Positions 14,515 through 63,098 of a stretch of 64,000 bases of DNA are shown here, piece by piece; the first letter of the stretch is position 1, and each line of letters begins with the position of its first letter. This DNA comes from Paenarthrobacter aurescens (GTDB taxonomy: Bacteria; Actinomycetota; Actinomycetes; Actinomycetales; Micrococcaceae). The notes under the pieces are model-generated. The model was given only the letters and a program-made list of their open reading frames with translations, was not told where the DNA came from and did no database searches. Location of the stretch: positions 3,658,001 through 3,722,000 of the forward strand of contig NZ_CP157456.1 in NCBI RefSeq assembly GCF_041549525.1. The letters are read 5' to 3'. The position numbers and the translations under genes were made by a program.

Positions 14515-14597
14515 TCCGCGAGCCTACTGCAGCCTGGCTTGGCGCCCGATTCGATGGTTCCCTGCGCACCATGCCGTGCGCGCGGCACGTTCAGCAG

Positions 14598-16493
14598 CTA
14601 AGCATCGAAACGGGCGAGCTGATCCCCGGAGAGGCGCGCGCCGTCAGGGAATTCGAAGTGGCCTTCCCCTTCCCCGGCAACAAACGAGACACCCGCATCC
14701 GGCGAAGCACCTCCCGCACCGGCGAGGATCACGACGGCGGCGTAGTCGCCGTCGTGCGCGGCGCCCGAGGTTCCCACCCATGGAATGGTGAGCGCCGAGC
14801 CCATCGGGTGGGCACCGGGGCGGGCGAATGTCCCGGACGAGTCCAGAGCCACACCGAATCCCGGCACGGGAAGCACCGAGCTGGCCATTGAGGAGGCAGC
14901 GTCCACCGGCCAGCCACCAATCCTTAGCGGGGCCGCAGAACCCCCAGCACCCGAAACGCGCACCAACCTCAGCTCAACGGCACCCCGCGTCACAGAAACC
15001 ACCGTCACCGAAGGGCCAGGCGTTGCAGTGCCGGCCACCCCGCTGCCGTGATCGGGGCCGGCGTCGGGATCGGGTTCGATCCAGTGTGCCGTGAACCGGG
15101 ACGCCCCCACCTGGAAGCCGCCTTCGGAGAACGAACCGAGGTGCTCAAAACCCGCCCGATGCGTCAGCCGGCCAGAGGAATCAACAAGCGCCACCGCATT
15201 GTCCACGGACTCAGGTGCCAGGTCCGGGAACGTGTGCGTCGAGTACCCGAGCCGTGCGTACAAGGGCGAGTCAGCCACCACAGCCCCAACAACAGCGTGA
15301 TCCGTGGCGTGGTTCCGGATCCGGACCACGCCGTCGGCACGAGTCCCATCAACCTGCCAACCCGGCGCCACGATCAGTCGCTGAGTGTCGGCAACCTCCA
15401 CGGGCAGAGGCGCCTCAACGGAGGTCCACGCCGCGTGATCCGCCGGCAAGGCCAACCCCAGCATGCCCTTCGCCGCCCAATAGGGCGAGCCCGCACCGGA
15501 GTAGGCCTGCTTCATGCCTGCAAATTCTCCGTGCCAGCCGATAGACAGGAGCCCGTCCTCGGTGATCGCCCCGTGCCGGGCAAAGTAGTGGAGCATCCCG
15601 GACGCTGCCCGGCGCGCCATTCCCGGCGCCAAACGCGTGTGCCCGGACAACTCCCCCACCCAGAACGGTGCCGCAGCCGCGAACCTGTAGATCAAGCTCC
15701 GGCCTTGGATCAGCGGAGCTCCGTTCGCGCCGACGAGGAACGCGGCGTCGTCCAGAAAGTCAGCCAGCCGATCGCCGTCGAGCTTCTTGCGTTCGGCAAC
15801 GCGGGGATCGTTGGGCGCCATCAGCGCCCAGAGCTGCGGATACACCTGGAACGCCCAGCCAACGTAGTGGTCGTAAGCGCGCTCGGGCCCGTCAGCGAAC
15901 CAGCCACCGCCCCGGTACAGCGAATCGTGGATTGCGAGTCCGCCGTCGATGTCCTCGTCCGAGTATCGGCCGCCAACGGATGCCAGGAACGTCTCCACCA
16001 CAATCTGGAACCACACCCAGTTGATAGGCGGGTACTCCTCGCCGATCACCGTCTCGAACCAGGCAATGAGCTGCTCCTGGACGCGCTCCGGCAGCTTGTC
16101 CCACAGCACATCGCGGGTCAACGCCAGGCCAACAGCCAACGACGCCGCCTCAACCTTCGCCTGCCCCAGCTCACCTGGCGTGGGCCACCGGTCAGGGTTG
16201 GCGGGGTTGGTCCCGGCGTCGAGGCCAGCGGCATACCACTCGGCGATCCACCCGGTGTTGGCTGGATCGCCGGCAATCCGGAACGAAGCCAGCAGGAACG
16301 TCCGGGCGAAGGCCTCCAGTGAGTCACTTCGCGGGCCGTACCGGCTGTTGGCTCCGGGCAGGTGGATGTTGGCGTGATCGTCAGTGGCATAGCGGTGGGC
16401 GGAGCGCAGGAGGTGATCCGCATATCCGCACCAGTGCTCACGGGTCAGGCCGGTGAACGGGGAAAGTTTGTGGTCCAGGGGCGGCAACAGCAT
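14598..16493 (-). CDS. DUF2264 protein, GH154-type putative beta-glucuronidase
   Basis: This 631-residue protein has no signal peptide and is therefore probably cytoplasmic. The N-terminal two thirds are the (alpha/alpha)-barrel DUF2264 domain, with Trp/Tyr-rich stretches such as NWVWFQIVVETFLASVGG, RYSDEDID and DGPERAYDHYVGWAF. A beta-sandwich-like C-terminal third follows. As I recall, DUF2264 proteins were founded as CAZy family GH154 from a Bacteroides beta-glucuronidase acting on arabinogalactan. Removal of terminal glucuronate here is an inference from that. It is the last gene of a three-gene operon; its ATG overlaps the regulator's TGA by one base (TGATG). Confidence 0.75.
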   Translation of the reverse strand: MLLPPLDHKLSPFTGLTREHWCGYADHLLRSAHRYATDDHANIHLPGANSRYGPRSDSLEAFARTFLLASFRIAGDPANTGWIAEWYAAGLDAGTNPANPDRWPTPGELGQAKVEAASLAVGLALTRDVLWDKLPERVQEQLIAWFETVIGEEYPPINWVWFQIVVETFLASVGGRYSDEDIDGGLAIHDSLYRGGGWFADGPERAYDHYVGWAFQVYPQLWALMAPNDPRVAERKKLDGDRLADFLDDAAFLVGANGAPLIQGRSLIYRFAAAAPFWVGELSGHTRLAPGMARRAASGMLHYFARHGAITEDGLLSIGWHGEFAGMKQAYSGAGSPYWAAKGMLGLALPADHAAWTSVEAPLPVEVADTQRLIVAPGWQVDGTRADGVVRIRNHATDHAVVGAVVADSPLYARLGYSTHTFPDLAPESVDNAVALVDSSGRLTHRAGFEHLGSFSEGGFQVGASRFTAHWIEPDPDAGPDHGSGVAGTATPGPSVTVVSVTRGAVELRLVRVSGAGGSAAPLRIGGWPVDAASSMASSVLPVPGFGVALDSSGTFARPGAHPMGSALTIPWVGTSGAAHDGDYAAVVILAGAGGASPDAGVSFVAGEGEGHFEFPDGARLSGDQLARFDA

Positions 16494-17641
16494 CAGAGCG
16501 AGTCCTCCAACGCAACTCCGGCGAGACCCCGCGGCGCACCCAACGACGAATCGCGCACAATCAGCTCGGGGTTCAAATCAATACGATGCACAGGGCGCAT
16601 CCTTCCTTCGGCCAGGCGGGCAGCCATCAGCTGCACCGCTACCTTGCCGACGTAGCTTTTGGGCGGCCGAACCGCCGAGATTGCGGGTTCGGCGAGGTAG
16701 GCCACTTCATCGTCGTATCCAACGATCGCCATGCTTCCGGGAACATCTACGCCACGGTCCACGCAGTGCTGCACGAACGCCACGGCCTGGGTATCGGAGT
16801 GCACCAGCATGGCCGTGGTCCCTGATGAACGGCAGAGCTCCAGGACTCGATCAAAGTGCTTGGCCCGGTCACCGTTGTCCAGTTTGGCCGAGTCCTCATG
16901 GATGGACTTTTCCAGCGGAATCTTCAGTGCAGCAAGGGCCTGCTTCCAACCGCGGACCACGTGGGGACTGGTAGGGCTCGTGGAATCAGTGAGGCATCCG
17001 ATCATCCGGTGCCCCTCCTGCCACAAGTGCCGCACGGCCATCCCGGCACCGAAGGAATGATCCGTGGCCACCCACTCCAAACGGTGGGACGGGATCTCGG
17101 ACGGTGCCCGACGCTCAGCCATGATCACCGGAATGGGCAGGGCGTTCAGCCAGCGGAGAAGTTCCTTGCCGTGCTCTCCACCCATATCCGGGGCCACAAT
17201 CAGGCCGTCAATGTTCTGCGTATCCAAGAGAGCCTGGACCTGGCGGCGGTTATCGGCAGCGTCATAGGCGGAACCCCGGACCAGGATACGGAGATTCTGC
17301 ACCTCGGCCTCTCCACGCGCCCCGGAAATCACCTGCGGCCAGTAATAATCCAACGACGGAACCACCATGCCGATTGAGTAGCTGTGAGCCGACGGCCTCC
17401 CCACAGCCGCCGATCGATCCAACGGGCTGGGCAACGTGGCACCGCCGTGAACGCGTGACACCAGGCCTTCATCGGCGAGCGTGTTCACGTCGCGGCGGAT
17501 GGTCAGCTCGCTGACGCCCAGCTTCGCGGCGATGTCGCGCACGGTAATGGCGCCATGCGCACGCAGCTCCTCCATGAGCCGCTCACGGCGTTGCAACGAA
17601 AACAACGACTTCCCGGGTTCCGGGCTTGATTCGTTAGTCAT
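16493..17641 (-). CDS. DeoR-HTH/LacI-sensor hybrid transcriptional regulator (locus A)
   Basis: This 382-residue regulator has a DeoR-type HTH (residues about 15-70; ITVRDIAAKLGVSELTIRRD and the wing SRVHGGA) fused to a LacI/periplasmic-binding-protein sensor domain (about 85-382; DGLIVAPD, GHRMIGCLTD, IVGYDDEVAYLAEP). Such hybrids usually repress sugar-use genes until a sugar or oligosaccharide binds. I chose the ATG at 17641 (MTNESS), which overlaps the heparinase-like gene's stop by eight bases; the longer open frame upstream is an antisense-type shadow of that gene. It probably controls both divergent operons of locus A. A paralogue is at 61891-62970. Confidence 0.88.
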   Translation of the reverse strand: MTNESSPEPGKSLFSLQRRERLMEELRAHGAITVRDIAAKLGVSELTIRRDVNTLADEGLVSRVHGGATLPSPLDRSAAVGRPSAHSYSIGMVVPSLDYYWPQVISGARGEAEVQNLRILVRGSAYDAADNRRQVQALLDTQNIDGLIVAPDMGGEHGKELLRWLNALPIPVIMAERRAPSEIPSHRLEWVATDHSFGAGMAVRHLWQEGHRMIGCLTDSTSPTSPHVVRGWKQALAALKIPLEKSIHEDSAKLDNGDRAKHFDRVLELCRSSGTTAMLVHSDTQAVAFVQHCVDRGVDVPGSMAIVGYDDEVAYLAEPAISAVRPPKSYVGKVAVQLMAARLAEGRMRPVHRIDLNPELIVRDSSLGAPRGLAGVALEDSL

Positions 17642-19664
17642 GTGTTGCCTCCACTGTGAGGGTGAACGCGCCGGAAGCGCGGGTGTCTGCGGGCATTCGG
17701 AAACGGAGCCTGGTGAGCTTTTCGCCCCAGATATCGCTGAGGAGCGGATCGTCGAGGTGCCATTCGTCAACGAGCACGACGGCGGTGGCCGGCTTCCAGC
17801 GAAGATGAAGGCCCTTGGTGGTTTCCGCAGCCGGAACCCCCTCAGGCGTGATGGTGGCCGTCGCGTCTGTACCGACGCTGACGGTGCCGGCAACCAGATA
17901 GGCGATGTCGACGTCGTGCGTTCCGTCCGGCGAGTGCGTTCCGTCCGGCGAGTGCGTTCCGTCCGTTTGGTGTGCCGGCAGGTTCCATCGATCGTCAATC
18001 ACCACGGATCCCTGCTCCCGGTTCATCAAGGAGGTTCGGATCCATTGCTCGGCGTGGCCCAGACCGTAGGCAGCCCCGAGACCCAACGCCAGGGTGGGCT
18101 CCTCCGGGGTGGGTTCCTGGAGAACAGTCGCCGCGAATTCCGCGCCGGTCCCCTGTTCCAGCCCGAACGGCGCGGGCACGCTGTGCCAGGCACTCTGCAT
18201 GGCCCGAATCTGGTAGCGATCAGGTCCGAACGTCTGAGCGGTGTAGGTTGGCTGGCCGGCGTCGACCAGCAGGGGCACACCGTCCACGGCAACAACCACG
18301 GAACCGACGTCGCGGTGGTTGTGGTGCTCGCCGTTGTGCCCGCCCTTGGCCGCGAGCGTGAGCCCGTCCGATGAACCCGGGGTTTGCCGCGCCACCATGA
18401 TCTGGACCGACGGCAGGTACGTCCCCCAACTGGGTAGCAGATCAGGTGATTCTGAGGGCTCACAACGACCTGATCTGCTACCCAGTTGGGTGCGGGAGGC
18501 GAGTTGGGTGAGGACGCGGCCCAGCCCGGCGGCTGCGTTGGGTTCAGGCTCGACGGCGGCAAAGGTTACGGCATGCGCTGCCGCCTCAGAGTCCCCCAGC
18601 CGGACGGCCCAACGGTGCAGCATTCCCCACGGCAGTCCTTTGTGGGCGCGGGCGGGGCCGTCGGCGACGTTCAGGAACCACCGGTGACCCAGGTGCATGC
18701 GGTGCGGGAAGGCCACCAGCGCACGGATCACGGGCAGGTCCGGATTCAGGACACCGCCGCTTGCTTCCTCCAACAGGGCCAGGCCTTCCAGTGCCCGCCC
18801 GGCACCATTCCACCAATAGGCGAATCCTTCGTCTATTGCACCGTCGGCCGGGATGGAAGCCAGGAAACGGTCCAAGCCCTCGATGCACCGGGCAATAACC
18901 TCCGCCTGCACCTGAGGATCCTCAACCAGCAGCAGCGCAGCCACCATGATGTTGGAGTGGATCCACGGGTTCCAGTTGTGGACGTCCCCGTCGAGGCCCA
19001 GCCAGTGCCAGTCGAGCCGGTCCAGGAATGGCCGGATCACCCGTTGGTTCGCTTCCGCACGTATCCGCCCGCGCAGGCCGGGTGCACGCTCATCAAGCGC
19101 GTCGCCCAGCACCAGGTCCAGCCAGGCGAGCTGCGCCACCACCTCACCTGCGCCCAGATCCAAGTACGGCCGGGAAAGATCCGGGACCACGTGGCCGCTG
19201 CGGGTGAACACGTCATCGTGCGCTGCCCAACTCCACGAGCTTTGCTCACACAGGAGGTACGCGCCATCAATTACTTCGTCGAGCCAGCCGTCACCAGAGG
19301 GTCCACCCAAGGCGGCCATCACGACGGCGCGTGTCAGCCGCTGCTGTCGGCTCGCCACAAGTCCCTCGTAGGCAGTGCGGTTGCCGTCGCGGAAGTAGCG
19401 CGCGTAGTGGGATACCAAGGGTTGTGGCCACGGGGTTCGCTTCTCCGCTTCCGCCTGGGCGCATAGCTCCGAGACGCGCAGTTCCGAAGGGGAGCGGGCA
19501 GCAGCGAGCTGCCATCCGGCGTCGGACGCTGGACGTGACGCTGGGCGAATAGTGAGGCGATCACGGGCGCCGCGGAGTGACTCCATCAAGGAGGAGGCGT
19601 CGGCGCTGGAACCCCAGGCACTCAGGAGGGGTGGCGCTTGAACGGCGGCGGTGCCGGTTGCCAT
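17634..19664 (-). CDS. Heparinase II/III family polysaccharide lyase-like protein
   Basis: About 676 residues without a signal peptide. The N-terminal (alpha/alpha) toroid (about 90-380) contains NPWIHSN and AYWWNGAGR. The C-terminal heparinase II/III beta domain (about 430-676) carries the metal/catalytic motif HHNHRDVGS near residue 450. Family members cleave uronic-acid glycosidic bonds by beta-elimination. Given the galactan enzymes nearby, a lyase acting on rhamnose- or galactose-linked glucuronate caps is possible, but the substrate is not proven. A 66-bp palindromic element is inserted in frame (about residues 391-413), and an 18-bp tandem repeat gives DGTHSP repeats near residue 570. 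The start at 19664 (MATGTA) has GGGAG nine bases upstream of a short AT spacer. It leads the operon with the regulator and the DUF2264 gene. Confidence 0.8.
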   Translation of the reverse strand: MATGTAAVQAPPLLSAWGSSADASSLMESLRGARDRLTIRPASRPASDAGWQLAAARSPSELRVSELCAQAEAEKRTPWPQPLVSHYARYFRDGNRTAYEGLVASRQQRLTRAVVMAALGGPSGDGWLDEVIDGAYLLCEQSSWSWAAHDDVFTRSGHVVPDLSRPYLDLGAGEVVAQLAWLDLVLGDALDERAPGLRGRIRAEANQRVIRPFLDRLDWHWLGLDGDVHNWNPWIHSNIMVAALLLVEDPQVQAEVIARCIEGLDRFLASIPADGAIDEGFAYWWNGAGRALEGLALLEEASGGVLNPDLPVIRALVAFPHRMHLGHRWFLNVADGPARAHKGLPWGMLHRWAVRLGDSEAAAHAVTFAAVEPEPNAAAGLGRVLTQLASRTQLGSRSGRCEPSESPDLLPSWGTYLPSVQIMVARQTPGSSDGLTLAAKGGHNGEHHNHRDVGSVVVAVDGVPLLVDAGQPTYTAQTFGPDRYQIRAMQSAWHSVPAPFGLEQGTGAEFAATVLQEPTPEEPTLALGLGAAYGLGHAEQWIRTSLMNREQGSVVIDDRWNLPAHQTDGTHSPDGTHSPDGTHDVDIAYLVAGTVSVGTDATATITPEGVPAAETTKGLHLRWKPATAVVLVDEWHLDDPLLSDIWGEKLTRLRFRMPADTRASGAFTLTVEATHD
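17916..17966. repeat. 18-bp in-frame tandem repeat, 2.8 copies
   Basis: The unit GTGCGTTCCGTCCGGCGA is repeated at 17916, 17934 and (partial) 17952 inside the heparinase-like gene. On the coding strand it gives the repeated peptide DGTHSP. Being a multiple of three, it keeps the frame. It lies in the C-terminal beta domain, away from the catalytic motif, and probably arose by replication slippage. Confidence 0.8.
18425..18490. repeat. 66-bp palindromic element inserted in frame in the heparinase-like gene
   Basis: Perfect 23-bp arms (18425-18447 and 18468-18490) surround a 20-base loop. The arms carry the core GGGTAGCAGATCAGG and its complement. The total is 66 bases (22 codons), so the reading frame is preserved. 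It codes for the low-complexity run TQLGSRSGRCEPSESPDLLP within the protein. A relative with the same outer sequence (CTACCCAGTTGGG) and a similar loop (CCCTCA core) lies at 51488-51544. It is therefore a dispersed palindromic repeat, not a gene-specific structure. Confidence 0.85.
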
Positions 19665-19761
19665 AGGAAATTTCTCCCATTTGTTCGAGTTTGAACGTTT
19701 CAGATCAAGCACGATTGAGTTGAATGAACTGTCTTGTTTATGAGTATGTACTGATTATTAG

Positions 19762-51477: not shown

Positions 51478-51487
51478 CCCCATGCAA

Positions 51488-51544
51488 GTAGCAGCAGATG
51501 CCGTTCTGAACCCTCAAAACCACATCTGCTGCTACCCAGTTGGG
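51488..51544. repeat. Palindromic element, second copy, supplying the ROK stop codon
   Basis: Perfect 13-bp arms GTAGCAGCAGATG (51488-51500) and CATCTGCTGCTAC (51523-51535) enclose a loop that itself partly pairs around CCCTCA. The element runs on through CCAGTTGGG as in the copy at 18425-18490. On the minus strand ACTGGGTAG ends the ROK gene, so the element provides its last codons and stop. It also lies between two convergent genes and may act as a terminator. Confidence 0.8.
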
Positions 51545-61006: not shown

Positions 61007-61018
61007 TTCCACGAAACC

Positions 61019-61060
61019 GAAGCGTTCGACGGCGGATTGCCACCCGCCGTCGAACGCTTC
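61019..61060 (+). terminator. Strong hairpin at the end of the locus B operon
   Basis: Perfect 17-bp arms (61019-61035 and 61044-61060; core GTTCGACGGCGG) with an 8-base loop lie 13 bases after the CPBP stop, followed by TGTTGTGCTT. It is a likely intrinsic terminator. Confidence 0.75.
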
Positions 61061-61079
61061 TGTTGTGCTTGCAGTACTT

Positions 61080-63022: not shown

Positions 63023-63027
63023 ACGTG

Positions 63028-63090
63028 CGTTGCGGGGCCCGCTCTGCGCGGTAAATACTCGCCAGAGAGCGCAAAACAGGCCCCGCAACG
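63028..63090 (-). terminator. Hairpin between propeller paralogue 2 and the regulator
   Basis: Perfect 12-bp arms CGTTGCGGGGCC (63028-63039) and GGCCCCGCAACG (63079-63090) with a further pairable GCTCT/AGAGC inner stem. It lies directly after the propeller gene end on the minus strand and before the regulator gene, fitting a terminator without T-tract. Confidence 0.6.
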
Positions 63091-63098
63091 CCGGGCAC

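Follow-up and report, generated by a model that had tools for sequence, protein, structure and literature searches.

How does a perfect palindrome come to be translated within a protein-coding gene, and what happens to it once it is there? This question is raised by a 66-nt element in a gene for a putative polysaccharide lyase of Paenarthrobacter aurescens, which lies in a 64,000-nt stretch of DNA (the window; we refer to the assembly that holds it as the source genome, and list the features discussed here in Table 1). The palindrome had been put forward in a preliminary description as a 66-bp repeat with perfect 23-bp arms around a 20-base loop, placed in frame, and we recovered it both by direct reading and by an inverted-repeat scan in which the arms extend to 2 x 32 nt with 91% complementarity and a 2 nt gap. 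It is the sole inverted repeat listed within 17500–19500 under the settings of the scan and heads the list of 16 for the whole window, and by our own rough estimate a perfect 23-nt hairpin would be expected by chance in 64 kb with a probability of about 1e-8. The element is indeed in frame, being translated from the minus-strand ORF as (T)QLGSRSGRCEPSESPDLLPSW(G), and in the sequences we read one of the three frames of the lyase copy is open while the other two usually hit a stop codon in an arm.

Table 1. Positions of the features discussed, in window coordinates unless stated otherwise.
Feature	Position	Strand	Remarks
66-nt palindromic element	18425..18490	.	In frame in lyase gene; stem type a
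Left 23-nt arm	18425..18447	.	Perfect complement of right arm (direct read)
Right 23-nt arm	18468..18490	.	Reverse complement of left arm, 20 bases between (direct read)
PL33-like polysaccharide lyase ORF (heparinase II/III superfamily)	17634..19712	-	Likely ATG start at 19664
DeoR-type HTH + periplasmic-binding-protein-like regulator	16493..17641	-	Start overlaps lyase stop
DUF2264 protein gene	14598..16493	-	Downstream, same direction
Second family copy	51479..51544 (genome 3709479-3709544)	.	Behind a stop codon; 72 bits with model R2
Long-element candidate	292704-296570 of source-genome block L131-L140		Two unpaired outer arms; arm scan

The host protein fits polysaccharide lyase family 33 by predicted fold (TM 0.69–0.73 to BtPL33HA and BcPL33HA, normalised by query) and by sequence similarity to a solved enzyme of that family (profile match to the heparinase entry 8r6z, E 6.1e-83), with a match to Pfam Hepar_II_III_C of 20.5 bits that is under the cut-off of 24 for that model, and its activity is putative. 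In the AlphaFold2 model (mean pLDDT 75.7) the insert is predicted to be a low-confidence loop joining the last toroid helix to the first beta-domain strand, as residues 395–407 of the 676-aa form have pLDDT values below 50 and lie between a helix at 381–390 and a strand at 414–417; this agrees with the toroid/beta-domain position proposed earlier. The DeoR-type regulator begins before the lyase gene has ended, with an overlap of 8 nt between start and stop (17634–17641), and the two genes are therefore probably co-translated, which places the hairpin upstream in the same probable operon. An 18-nt short tandem repeat is also found near the 3' end of the lyase gene (17917–17970), where it is translated as THSPDG units.

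The palindrome is one of a family of 66-nt repeats dispersed through the genomes of Arthrobacter-like soil bacteria. These repeats are palindromic over their full length and have the ends CCCAACT..AGTTGGG, and their consensus is a near-perfect palindrome. A blastn search with the 66 bases found seven places in the source genome including the lyase copy, a pattern search added one, and our covariance model R2 found 30 at E ≤ 1, of which 12 scored 55 bits or more (scores were computed for 150 of the 1575 first-look candidates, and copy numbers from the model are minimum values). These places bear out the earlier suggestion of a dispersed repeat that is protein-coding here, and the relative noted elsewhere in the window is real, with the qualification that R2 was built partly from source-genome copies and has this one in its training set. 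R2 also matched 12 of 13 named relatives, with none in a Microbacterium; the 128 matches in EpRS71, counted over both strands, correspond to about 64 places. A family-wide sample with stricter filters and fewer candidates scored gave matches in 33 of 149 genomes and 12 of 32 genera. Searches of Rfam returned nothing at gathering scores for seven loci, and for the lyase gene just low-scoring animal microRNA models, all under their gathering scores. Palindromes of other families lie in the window at 631–702, about 14544–14615, 61015–61064 and 63027–63091, and similar ones recur in blocks of EpRS71, NtRootA1 and 9V (e.g. GTTGCGGGGCCCGCTCTGCG and TTTCGATGGTTCCCTGC), so these genomes carry several 50–72-nt palindrome families. 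Four 400-kb blocks held 27, 32, 31 and 39 separate palindromes with at least 22 of 31 positions paired, from many families, compared with 3, 1, 0 and 1 positions reaching that value in letter-shuffled versions of the same blocks.

The copies lie mostly at the ends of genes. Fifty-two were called in eight blocks from eight genomes (2.4 Mb, with genes called by a home-made codon-score caller, and including one 9V item, 149356, which resembles another family), of which 26 are between convergent genes, 18 between tandem genes, four between divergent genes and four in genes, where the gaps of at least 50 nt available in these blocks number 218, 633 and 368 for the convergent, tandem and divergent arrangements, respectively. 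A stop codon is found within 30 nt of 40 of the 48 copies outside genes, compared with 1189 of 3200 (37%) random gap places, and several copies overlap a gene end by 9–19 nt and in this way provide its stop codon. All four in-gene copies are in the PL33-like lyase gene, in the source genome, EpRS71, NtRootA1 and 9V. The family is thus not confined to the lyases, and the likeness to Rickettsia palindromic elements drawn in the preliminary description holds for the in-frame palindrome within a gene but not for its spread, as just 4 of the 52 copies are in genes and these represent one gene.

The site of the insert within the lyase is conserved. All twelve alleles that we could read as DNA, one from the window and eleven from orthologues on genome contigs, contain an in-frame insert of exactly 66 nt followed by GGAC, with a left linker of variable length, and the stems are of three types, a (GATCAGG), b (GCGCG) and c (AAACGTC..AATGAG). 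Fifteen of the 31 pairs in these stems have changed on both sides, and 87% of cells are paired compared with 28–38% when the partners are slid. By peptide, the insert is present in all of the 47 closest homologues, either complete or as a deletion derivative (P0020 has an in-frame deletion of the insert's middle), and an insertion that is recent and peculiar to the source genome was rejected for this reason. A clean 22-residue gap in homologues, which had been anticipated for an insertion, was not found; L030 and the other more distant loci that were read have unrelated linkers, and linker length varies among the homologues lacking the insert. It should be noted that these palindrome-less homologues have other residues in the linker, and the same 22 residues do not occur there without the palindrome.

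We constructed a tree of 44 typed proteins with the linker left out (P0020, because of its internal deletion, and P0038, P0039 and P0041, which have a fourth stem type, were omitted), and on this tree types a (9 proteins), b (23) and c (12) require at least 13 changes, where types were read from the peptide by regular expression for those without DNA and type b was assigned manually to P0046 and P0047. The starred branches alone force five changes for type a, five for b and three for c, and the window and EpRS71 sequences (a) are placed as sisters to MYb23 (b) with support of 99/97. The types are nonetheless clustered on the tree (13 changes versus a mean of 18.2 in shuffles, with a value as low in 1 of 200), and part of the type pattern is therefore inheritance. 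Among the twelve DNA alleles, stem distance is 0.136 within and 0.340 between types, whereas the gene distances for the same alleles are 0.171 and 0.181. Seven flank segments were compared with stem type and none of them followed it (p 0.13 to 0.98), even within 60 nt; the unit of exchange therefore appears to be the element alone, with the flanking codons unaffected.

The stem type in the lyase gene tends to be one that is resident in the genome. Arms counted with the type patterns on both strands (reversed-pattern controls gave 0 or 1) numbered, for types a/b/c, 6/0/0 in the source genome, 90/0/0 in EpRS71, 65/0/0 in RL58, 6/0/0 in cf158, 0/41/0 in NtRootA1, 6/0/29 in 9V, 40/25/5 in MYb23, 6/30/11 in 18067, 6/6/3 in TC1, 0/7/5 in CM16, 0/2/4 in SM1928 and 0/21/1 in ISL-95. 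With the gene's own arms removed, the lyase type was found elsewhere in the same genome in 11 of 12 cases (7.4 expected, p 0.017), and its mean share of the genome's arms was 0.59 compared with 0.34 expected (p 0.015), in a permutation test that ignores the relatedness of the twelve genomes. The exception is ISL-95, which has type a in the lyase gene and no other type a arm in the genome, and the lyase type was the commonest type of the genome in just 6 of 12 cases (p 0.25). In four relatives lacking the insert (G009–G012) all three types are absent, but other copies are found there by R2.

A similar pattern is seen between genes. Mapping of flanks among the source genome, EpRS71, NtRootA1 and 9V gave 30 slot pairs occupied in both genomes, in which a stem lies at a distance of 0.36 from its orthologue and of 0.24 from the median copy of its own genome, and in 42 of 60 comparisons the stem is nearer within the genome than to the orthologue. 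At two slots of the EpRS71 block (362637 and 370678) the stem is of type a in EpRS71, b in NtRootA1 and c in 9V, as at the lyase slot, and a third (393119, a-like) shows the same pattern less surely, with weaker orthology in NtRootA1; the slot of the second window copy, on the other hand, has kept one stem in the source genome, EpRS71 and 9V. We also considered whether intergenic slots retain outer arms of their own, but this was rejected as not significant (ends p 0.066, outer arms p 0.38, from 21 of the 30 slot pairs hand-picked for differing stems).

These comparisons make it very likely that the site and length of the lyase insert are fixed and that its stem is swapped, mostly for types resident in the genome. 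Our preferred explanation, to which we give a probability of roughly 0.55, is that an old in-frame insertion has had its sequence replaced as one whole, in exchanges with copies elsewhere in the genome, through break-repair gene conversion; given that the exchanges take place, we put gene conversion as their route at somewhat better than even. The 66-nt palindromes would normally reside at gene ends, and one would have landed in the variable toroid/beta-domain linker of a PL33-like lyase in an ancestor of the Paenarthrobacter-like clade, where its open frame could be read through as a hydrophilic loop that is predicted to be disordered. Since then the site and the 66-nt length would have been kept and the stem overwritten several times, mostly with a type also present elsewhere in the same genome, and with flanking codons left untouched. 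We infer that an extruded hairpin may be cut by an SbcCD-like nuclease in rare break repair, and that the cut may be refilled from another copy by way of the shared outer arms and centre, that is, by ectopic gene conversion. Arm pairing would then be a by-product of palindrome copying and not of selection on an RNA hairpin. SbcD scored over the cut-off in ten of ten genomes, with an SbcC-like ORF adjoining; these SbcC-like ORFs were under the strict model cut-off in all ten, as was SbcC in 13 of 14 control genomes. The shared outer arms of about 7–16 nt are short for RecA-type exchange, which counts against gene conversion.

Targeted transposition is a possible though less likely source of the exchanges, and would involve a non-autonomous MITE- or REP-like element and a putative transposase with a preference for hairpins or gene ends, the new copy replacing the resident one. 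The copies are dispersed with conserved ends and cluster at gene ends, one EpRS71 site is empty in the source genome, NtRootA1 and 9V, and slot 167466 of EpRS71 holds a different palindrome family in the other three genomes, as such movement would suggest. The empty site means that new copies seem to be gained and is indirect support for the earlier description of the repeat as mobile, which was not otherwise borne out. The element has inverted ends, as MITEs do. Against transposition, no target duplication is recognisable at the one empty site aligned, and a precise in-frame replacement would also need exact removal of the old copy. A scan of the eight blocks (2.4 Mb) for arms that could be the ends of a longer insertion sequence or autonomous parent element gave a single candidate, with unpaired outer arms 3.9 kb apart. 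The Y1 (RAYT) transposase family PF01797 was found in none of 14 genomes by a search that was positive in 5 of 14 known genomes used as a control; mobilisation by RAYTs was rejected on this basis, and a transposase outside the Y1 family could still be the mover of copies.

The family resembles the REP/REPIN sequences that spread with RAYTs in being short, palindromic, many-copy and mostly located near gene ends where neighbouring genes are convergent or unidirectional, and in forming genome-specific sequence populations (PMC3116915, PMC3733652, PMC8049555), and here 48 of the 52 copies are extragenic. It differs in being 66 nt and palindromic throughout with symmetric ends, where the REP/REPIN unit is 20–40 bp with a GTAG or CGTC end tag, and in the lack of the RAYT family from the 14 genomes; GTAG occurs inside many arms but not as an unpaired end tag. 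The CGTC-tagged REPs are closer in that they have no known transposase and include intragenic units that code for residues, but their motif is another and their stems are 8–9 bp (PMC3733652), and in the accessible part of that paper, which describes intragenic REPs, no mention was found of stem exchange at an orthologous coding site. Rickettsia palindromic elements are likewise described within genes and read through in frame, as in 12 of 12 alleles here, but are about 150 bp and occur in many unrelated genes (PMC10969869), whereas in our sample the 66-nt family enters one orthologous gene, where its stem is apparently exchanged.

Returning to the exchange itself, we think it improbable that it is the work of a dedicated hairpin-for-hairpin system, in which a trans-acting activity would swap such palindromes as whole units chromosome-wide, perhaps between unrelated families, and so keep rewriting the 22-residue lyase segment in frame.

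Selection on RNA could in principle explain the strong covariation if the hairpins act in termination or at mRNA 3' ends and the lyase copy is a regulatory or pausing hairpin, and the excess of copies close to stop codons fits this, as does the presence in the source genome of hairpins that look like terminators, judged by eye, at three of the slots that the palindrome occupies in EpRS71. The family is like intrinsic terminators in occupying the same kind of place, but it has conserved ends and centre and is repeated, and none of 65 gene-facing ends has a T tract (at least five T within the following 8 nt). Changes on the sense strand show no excess of G-U over A-C (9 versus 23 in the lyase alleles, 27 versus 22 in 17 tandem copies), and the missing T tract and G-U excess both disfavour RNA selection. 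In 9V, slot 125378 has both a palindrome and a terminator-like hairpin, P0020 has lost the middle of the insert in frame, and stems switch as wholes and not stepwise, which leaves an RNA or terminator function very doubtful.

Allelic recombination, in which stem types are imported from other species on fragments of the lyase gene, would account for the three types being common to several species, and recombination can scramble gene trees among close relatives; however, no flank segment tracks type, even at 0–60 nt on the right, and the same swaps occur at intergenic slots, making it highly improbable. Template-switch correction of quasi-palindromes with point mutation, where one arm is copied from the other and stems drift, matches the compensatory change at columns 8/59 between the window and EpRS71, the closest pair, but is the hardest to credit since it supplies no whole new stems and no match to types elsewhere in the genome.

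In Arthrobacter livingstonensis 5,512 REPs have been predicted, and the 66-nt family is not named in the accessible part of that report (PMC12306157). Our literature search, which covered titles and the beginnings of abstracts, recognised no report of the family in Arthrobacter or Paenarthrobacter or of stem exchange at a coding slot. It has long been asked which process keeps the dispersed palindromes of bacteria alike, gene conversion or transposition, and a 1988 review reportedly posed the question in its title. The question becomes testable by strain sequencing and experiment at the lyase slot, because this combines constrained flanks with a fixed length and three distinguishable stems in genomes where no RAYT was found. 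Here, too, a repeat that is mostly non-coding appears to supply new sequence for a segment of protein without loss of the reading frame.

Two minor observations concern the family itself. The base after the palindrome is T at 47 of 65 gene-facing ends in the eight blocks, and the complete element may therefore be 68 nt long, bounded by A and T. Per 400-kb block there are 4 copies in the source genome (L121–L140) and 14 in its closest relative EpRS71 (L141–L160), and two EpRS71 slots are remnants in the source genome with the middle gone, as if the family were decaying there.
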